Position numbers and translations under genes: made by a program. The notes under the pieces were generated by a model. It did not search any database. It saw only the letters and a program-made list of their open reading frames with translations, and was not told where the DNA came from. 64,000 bases of DNA from Fimbriimonadaceae bacterium (GTDB lineage Bacteria; Armatimonadota; Fimbriimonadia; Fimbriimonadales; Fimbriimonadaceae), in assembly GCA_020847855.1 (NCBI GenBank), contig JADLBH010000011.1, positions 1 through 64,000 on the forward strand, in the 5' to 3' direction. Positions 59,694 to 60,183 of this stretch are shown here, piece by piece (positions within the stretch are counted from its first letter, which is position 1; the number at the start of each line of letters is the position of its first letter).

Positions 59694-60183
59694 ATGAACA
59701 CAGACAGACAGACAGACAGACAGACAGACAGACAGACAGACAAATCGCTACCATAGGAACGTTCGACGAATCGTGGCTTCGGTCGCCGCGCTGGCCAGTA
59801 CGCTTGTGCTCGTGTCGCCGTTTGCGCCAATTCAACGACTTGTACAACCTAGTGCTTGGCCCGAAGGCGAGCACCTGGTGAAACTGAACTCCAAATCCAC
59901 GAGTGTGTACTTCGTACGAGTAGCGAATCCGACGCTTTCCAATCTCCGGGTGGCCATCGCGTCCGACTGTTGCTCCATCGAAGGAATCGCCTTTGAATCA
60001 ATCCCGCCCTTCAGCACGAGGGTCTTGCGAGGCGAGGTGGATTGGCAGCACGCGAGAGTGGAGGGAGGTGTCCTGCGCGTGGCAGTCCGGATTGCTTCCG
60101 ATACTGGAAACCGGGATCAACTCCTTGCCTATCACGTCGCGGAAGGCGACTACGTGAGCGCCCGCTACGGAGGAGGAAAGTAG
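59694..60183 (+). CDS. DUF1573-like secreted protein, cassette copy 2, interrupted by a frame-shifting repeat (apparently OFF)
   Basis: ATG 59694 has GGAGGT nine bases upstream. As given, its frame reads MNTDRQTDRQTDRQTDKSLP and stops at 59754-59756. Losing one GACA unit (or gaining two) would bring it into the long frame ending at 60183. That frame then yields NRYHRNVRRIVASVAALAST and LVLVSPFA, a proper signal peptide. The mature part has LVKLNSKSTSVYFVRVANPT, IASDCCSIEG and IPPFSTRVLRGEVDWQHARV, homologous to the 41309 protein. A GTG at 59773 could start it alone, but would cut off the signal and has no good ribosome site. Function unknown. Confidence 0.72.
59700..59742 (+). repeat. Tetranucleotide repeat (GACA)10 inside the 5' coding region
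   Basis: Ten perfect GACA units fill 59703-59742, preceded by a partial unit (ACA, 59700-59702). The tract begins two codons after the ATG with the strong Shine-Dalgarno. Because 4 is not divisible by 3, gain or loss of units changes the reading frame, as in phase-variable loci of Haemophilus and Moraxella. Such a repeat is unusual in this GC-rich window and is the only one I found. Confidence 0.95.

Follow-up and report, generated by a model that had tools for sequence, protein, structure and literature searches.

A (GACA)10 array as a probable contingency switch among about 19 candidate repeat loci of exported-protein genes in a Fimbriimonadaceae genome

Background

Nearly all descriptions of contingency switching by simple-sequence repeats (SSRs) come from host-adapted pathogens and commensals. 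The phasomes of Campylobacter and Helicobacter are genome-wide sets of SSR-switched genes, mostly with poly-G/C tracts, and the SSR targets of Haemophilus influenzae are mostly lipopolysaccharide enzymes, iron uptake functions and methyltransferases. In the opa genes of Neisseria, a (CTCTT)n repeat lies within the region that encodes the leader peptide (PMC3960869; PMC11475388), and an (AGTC)14 tract has been reported directly after a start codon in H. influenzae (PMC2651432). A 2025 review pointed to a gap for bacteria of ocean and soil, one that it expects to be filled (PMC11868660). In the open-access papers searched, we found no report of phase variation in Armatimonadetes, Armatimonadota or Fimbriimonadia, in agreement with a sequence-only reading of the locus described here, whose author knew of none in this lineage.

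That reading proposed a genetic switch from a single locus, a (GACA)10 array in the first codons of an exported-protein gene. The genome, a Fimbriimonadaceae-like Armatimonadota MAG, holds more such loci, and the array is very probably a simple-sequence contingency switch that belongs to a set of about 19. The window discussed below is the whole 64,000-nucleotide stretch of DNA that was analysed.

The GACA array and its reading frame

The array occupies positions 59703-59742 of the window (C11:59703 in the genome-wide set) and amounts to 10.75 units if the preceding ACA is counted (TRF, 100% match). The presumed start codon of gene A, ATG 59694, is preceded at a distance of 10 nt by a Shine-Dalgarno-like GGAGG (59679-59683, plus strand), a signal that had been called excellent; the motif is present and good, but its spacing is slightly far. 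With the present ten units, the frame from this ATG reads MNTDRQTDRQTDRQTDKSLP and meets a TAG at 59754-59756, so that the short open reading frame (59694-59756, plus strand) consists of the ATG and 20 codons across the repeat. The remainder of gene A (59743-60183, plus strand) is an open frame of 146 codons plus TAG, which begins with the leader NRYHRNVRRIV... and continues into a CC-containing domain, and it is in this frame that homology to a paralogue on contig C37 is found. The two segments are thus out of frame, as had been claimed, and the proposal that removing one unit or adding two would join them is arithmetically exact: 9 units give a protein of 161 aa and 12 units one of 165 aa. 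The restored frame reads ...NRYHRNVRRIVASVAALASTLVLVSPFA, with the two arginines and the hydrophobic core that had been noticed earlier, and the restored N-terminus of protein A is MNTDRQTDRQTDRQTNRYHRNVRRIVASVAALASTLVLVSPFA, a basic region followed by the hydrophobic core. In short, this is a perfect non-triplet tract in the 5' coding region, and gain or loss of units gives back the full-length frame.

The window contains seven overlapping matches to (GACA)4, against an expectation of 0.01 per shuffled window for four perfect units, which excludes chance as the origin of the array; chance was likewise rejected for the genome-wide array set with order-3 Markov genomes. The repeat scan of the window found no other SSR of this kind. 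The best-supported mechanism for the proposed switch is slipped-strand mispairing: changes in the number of 4-bp units would decide whether ATG 59694 shares a frame with the leader and the rest of exported protein A, ten units being the OFF state and 9 or 12 units the ON state. By analogy, the mechanism would work like the repeat switching of opa and H. influenzae, and the number of units would be expected to vary in living populations. It could be objected that the number of units is an error of assembly or binning and that the genes are truly in frame, since this is a draft assembly of 41 contigs and repeats are error-prone. This is very unlikely indeed: the 43-bp tract is short enough for one short read, errors would not confine arrays to the starts of leader-peptide genes (see below), and a consensus number is what a switching population should yield anyway.

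The cassette and its second GACA-bearing copy

Gene A is followed by two genes on the same strand. Gene B (60183-60536), read directly, encodes a small Cys-rich protein that is predicted to be exported and has a paralogue in L008; its GTG overlaps the TAG of gene A by one base, so that it may be partly coupled to gene A despite its own GGAGGAGG. Gene C (60671-61717) encodes a predicted exported protein with a C-terminal membrane anchor, and has paralogues on C37 (32% identity) and at 42844-43887 of the window. A Pfam scan of gene A found no family and its codon bias is weak, two points that weigh against the switch interpretation. The protein looks DUF1573-like, but only by eye. For genes A and C, the confidence of the AlphaFold models was too low for use (pLDDT 37-39), and a sigma-70 promoter scan of the cassette gave no match.

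The upstream neighbor is rho (58109-59524, plus strand), and its 3' end is part of a 90-nt direct repeat. The left copy (59436-59525) is the rho 3' end and the right copy (61770-61859) lies beyond gene C, both on the plus strand and 97% identical, so that they bracket the A-B-C cassette. In the relative L246, only about 60 bp separate rho from yajQ and no cassette lies there, which argues that the cassette was probably inserted between these genes. The arrangement resembles the outcome of an insertion that gave rho back its end; no integrase is present. The yajQ gene beside this cassette shares 82% identity with its counterpart in the Fimbriimonadaceae MAG ACE_ARM1 (CP075364), and the next matches are from other Armatimonadota. 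A third cassette, at 41309-43887 (plus strand), has an ordinary start without a repeat and is an unswitched relative of the A-B-C cassette; a type IV pilin-like gene (Pfam N_methyl) lies between its A and B genes.

The sole other match to at least (GACA)4 in a search of the genome is a (GACA)5 tract at C37:387889; it lies at the same place as (GACA)10, at the start of the gene A paralogue in a second, diverged A-B-C cassette. The frame from the GTG of this paralogue is also broken, and would be whole with 3 or 6 units. The two A proteins share only about 30% identity, and they align in the coding frame over 67 aa (30%, E 7e-7), which implies either that the tract has been kept over a long divergence or that it arose twice. 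Searches of relatives with genes A and C found gene C relatives in other genera, some of them accompanied by B- and A-like genes, and no GACA tract; a separate genome-contig search with gene C as query gave no match. In one relative with B and C genes (G007:C1, about 38000; L052), there is no repeat, gene A contains a stop, and its leader and body do not share a frame; this gene seems to be broken or misassembled.

A genome-wide set of arrays at leader-peptide genes

The census of arrays covered 2,399,111 bases, 95% of the 2,526,561-base genome. When only perfect arrays of at least 4 units with a unit length of 4-12 bp were counted, 12 were found, with units of 4 (two arrays), 5 (five), 7 (three) and 8 bp (two), and none with units of 6, 9 or 12 bp. 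Every one of the 12 sits at a leader-peptide gene start, and there are none elsewhere in the 2.40 Mb. Five order-3 Markov genomes contained three such arrays in total (0.6 per genome), every one with a 4-bp unit. A relaxed set (at least 2.8 copies, 85% match, imperfect arrays included) held 23 arrays with a non-triplet unit and 25 whose unit is a multiple of three. A strict automatic rule for leader starts accepted 12 of the 23 non-triplet arrays, compared to 2 of the 25 others and 3.8% of randomly chosen positions (p 8e-12). Some clear cases escape this rule, and C19:40980, one of the 12 that it accepts, is not believed on inspection. Triplet-multiple arrays are rare at leaders. Inspection of the 23 non-triplet arrays assigned 19 to leader starts and one to a degenerate relative (C17, which has a stop codon within the leader), with three that are not at leader starts or are unclear (C30, C19:13422 and C19:40980). 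At the 19 loci, leaders were assigned by hydrophobicity and inspection, usually as a hydrophobic stretch after a basic n-region, and all 19 products are predicted on these grounds to be exported.

Because about 19 arrays are present and almost every one sits right at the beginning of an exported-protein gene, random on/off flipping is very likely; the same switching at all these loci, with units of 4, 5, 7 and 8 bp, would cause a large share of the bacterium's orphan exported proteins to vary randomly between cells. Runs of 9-10 G/C bases are no commoner than chance by our own estimate of the expectation, and homopolymer switches were rejected on this basis. Loss of mismatch repair is an unlikely cause because two MutS-type genes are present.

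States were called from the nearest start codon. Besides the two GACA loci, the OFF loci are C4:18978 (GCGTGx5), C20:24728 (GCGTGx9), C18:26470 (GCGGTx4), C38:95433 (L168; ACGGCTCx3), C38:151246 (CTGCGGCx3), C37:182538 and C37:185425 (AGCCTCAx5 and x8), C15:11736 (CTCGCGGx5, one mismatch), and C27:39830, C27:42188 and C27:46051 (ATCGGCGC x4, about x10 and imperfect, and x3). The gene at C38:95433 is truncated and continues in frame into groEL, and is probably a relic left by a deletion. The ON loci are C29:50853 (GCGTGx6), C5:7682 (CATGGGCx5), C13:38909 (CAAATGCGx3) and C27:25066 (CGGAGCCx2.9). At C2:29492 (TCAGGx11) the state depends on the start chosen, and C10:112557 (ATGCGCTAx7.8) is of a different type, its array ending in the start codon. 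The genome thus carries several loci in different frame states: 13 OFF, 4 ON and these two. The ratio of 13 OFF to 4 ON is close to the 2:1 expected for a random frame, but wrongly assumed starts, or decay of some of the genes, would also give 13 of 17 OFF.

Several side observations concern individual loci. At C10:112557-112618 (L183), the (ATGCGCTA)7.8 array stands directly before the leader-peptide gene and its units read ATG-CGC-TAA, each stop overlapping the next ATG (TAATG), so that the array is a chain of two-codon mini-ORFs, the last at the real start. The three C27 loci at 39830, 42188 and 46051 (L167) have a nearly identical leader start, ATGCCGTCC(ATCGGCGC)n, and nearly identical upstream DNA, while their proteins are about 21-22% identical to one another, a pattern that would fit copying of the 5' switch module among three diverged genes. 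The switched proteins of C18, C27 and C38 align with an invariant His (AHG-type, H187) and a later invariant Cys (C226); by eye only, the pattern resembles the dyad of caspase-like peptidases, with no Pfam match. Boxes that resemble a -10 element by eye lie 13-18 nt before the ATG at several loci (tatagt at C15, tatgat at C18 and tataat at G081), which suggests that mRNA leaders there are short or absent.

Are the OFF genes functional?

One alternative is that slippage left the arrays behind as neutral scars while the genes decayed; the OFF frames would then be pseudogenes, and the leader simply a place that tolerates repeats. The majority of loci are OFF, C38a and C17 are visibly broken, and gene A of G007 seems broken as well. 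Still, the coding frames of the OFF genes remain open for 135-518 codons past the break, with GC3 values of 0.6-0.87, and comparisons of paralogues point to purifying selection on them. The C18 and C27c genes, which are 67% identical, both OFF and equipped with different units, give a dN/dS of 0.22 over 332 codons, and values of 0.30 and 0.27 were obtained for C4 (OFF) versus C29 (ON) and for C13 versus C10, respectively; all three (NG86) are only rough because dS is 1.0-1.8. Furthermore, decay would not explain that the 12 longest arrays are all at gene starts and none elsewhere, that no long array has a unit divisible by three, or that tracts have been kept or renewed in paralogues of about 30% identity and in other genera. 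We consider the decay explanation unlikely.

A second alternative is that translation starts elsewhere, at GTG 59773 or at codons inside the units, in which case the number of units would tune expression or have no effect. Every GCGTG unit contains a GTG, and CATGGGC, CAAATGCG and ATGCGCTA contain an ATG, so that C4, C20, C29, C18, C5, C13 and C10 always have some in-frame start; the last ATG of the C10 array stays in frame however many units there are. On the other hand, nine OFF loci, (GACA)10 included, have no in-frame start codon between the last stop and the leader, and a GTG start inside an array would be weak anyway. The in-frame GTG at 59773-59775 (plus strand) has no well-placed Shine-Dalgarno sequence, and starting there would lose the basic n-region with both arginines. 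A start elsewhere is quite unlikely on this evidence. The switch interpretation of the sequence-only reading is well supported by the (GACA)5 paralogue, some 17 further loci, purifying selection on OFF genes, the nine OFF loci just mentioned and the different units in two other genera (see below).

Repeats in related genomes

Most related genomes lack these tracts, which counts against reading them as switches: (GACA)5 was found in none of 60 relatives and (GCGTG)4 in none of 112, so that each is confined to the present genome among the 61 and 113 searched, respectively. Of 113 genomes from the order, 13 contain the C15 gene family, and two of its members in other genera carry repeats of their own. 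In G010 the gene (TGGCGGT x3.9) starts with ATG-(GCGGTTG)3 and is in frame (ON), and in G081 it starts with ATGCTCGATCGC-(GCAGGTC)6 and is out of frame (OFF). The unit also changes between paralogues, from the octamer of C27a to the heptamer of C38b and from the octamer of C27c to the pentamer of C18. The repeat unit thus differs from genus to genus and among paralogues, while its position and frame-shifting length persist. It is reasonably likely, to judge from these sequences, that the Fimbriimonadaceae run a large phase-variable secretome of about 19 exported orphan proteins, in which the unit has repeatedly been replaced, with position and frame-shifting length kept by selection. Such switching would presumably be useful, for example against phage, predators or neighbors.

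Comparison with known systems

Armatimonadota are not known as host-adapted pathogens, and the set of about 19 loci on orphan exported proteins would extend the strategy of SSR switching to another phylum and suggests that pressures besides adaptive immunity can maintain it. As in the phasomes of Campylobacter and Helicobacter, a genome-wide set of genes is involved, here of candidates; unlike in those phasomes, G/C runs of 9-10 bases are no commoner here than our own estimate of chance. The SSR loci of H. influenzae (PMC2651432) resemble the present ones in having tetra-, penta-, hepta- and octanucleotide tracts at 5' ends and in their many loci per genome, but tetranucleotides dominate there whereas 5-, 7- and 8-bp units dominate here, and every target here is a predicted exported orphan protein. 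As far as Pfam shows, the switched proteins have no relationship to those of the H. influenzae loci; the scan of 18 proteins gave no match above the cut-off apart from the pilin motif, which lies outside the switched genes, and detected no homology to Opa or any other outer-membrane family. By this measure the proteins are unrelated to those of Neisseria opa, and the present system also differs in that its units vary in sequence and length between paralogues, that it belongs to another phylum and that no host is known. What it shares with opa is a non-triplet repeat in the leader-coding region of several scattered, paralogous genes for exported proteins, placed so that the reading frame would set each gene ON or OFF.
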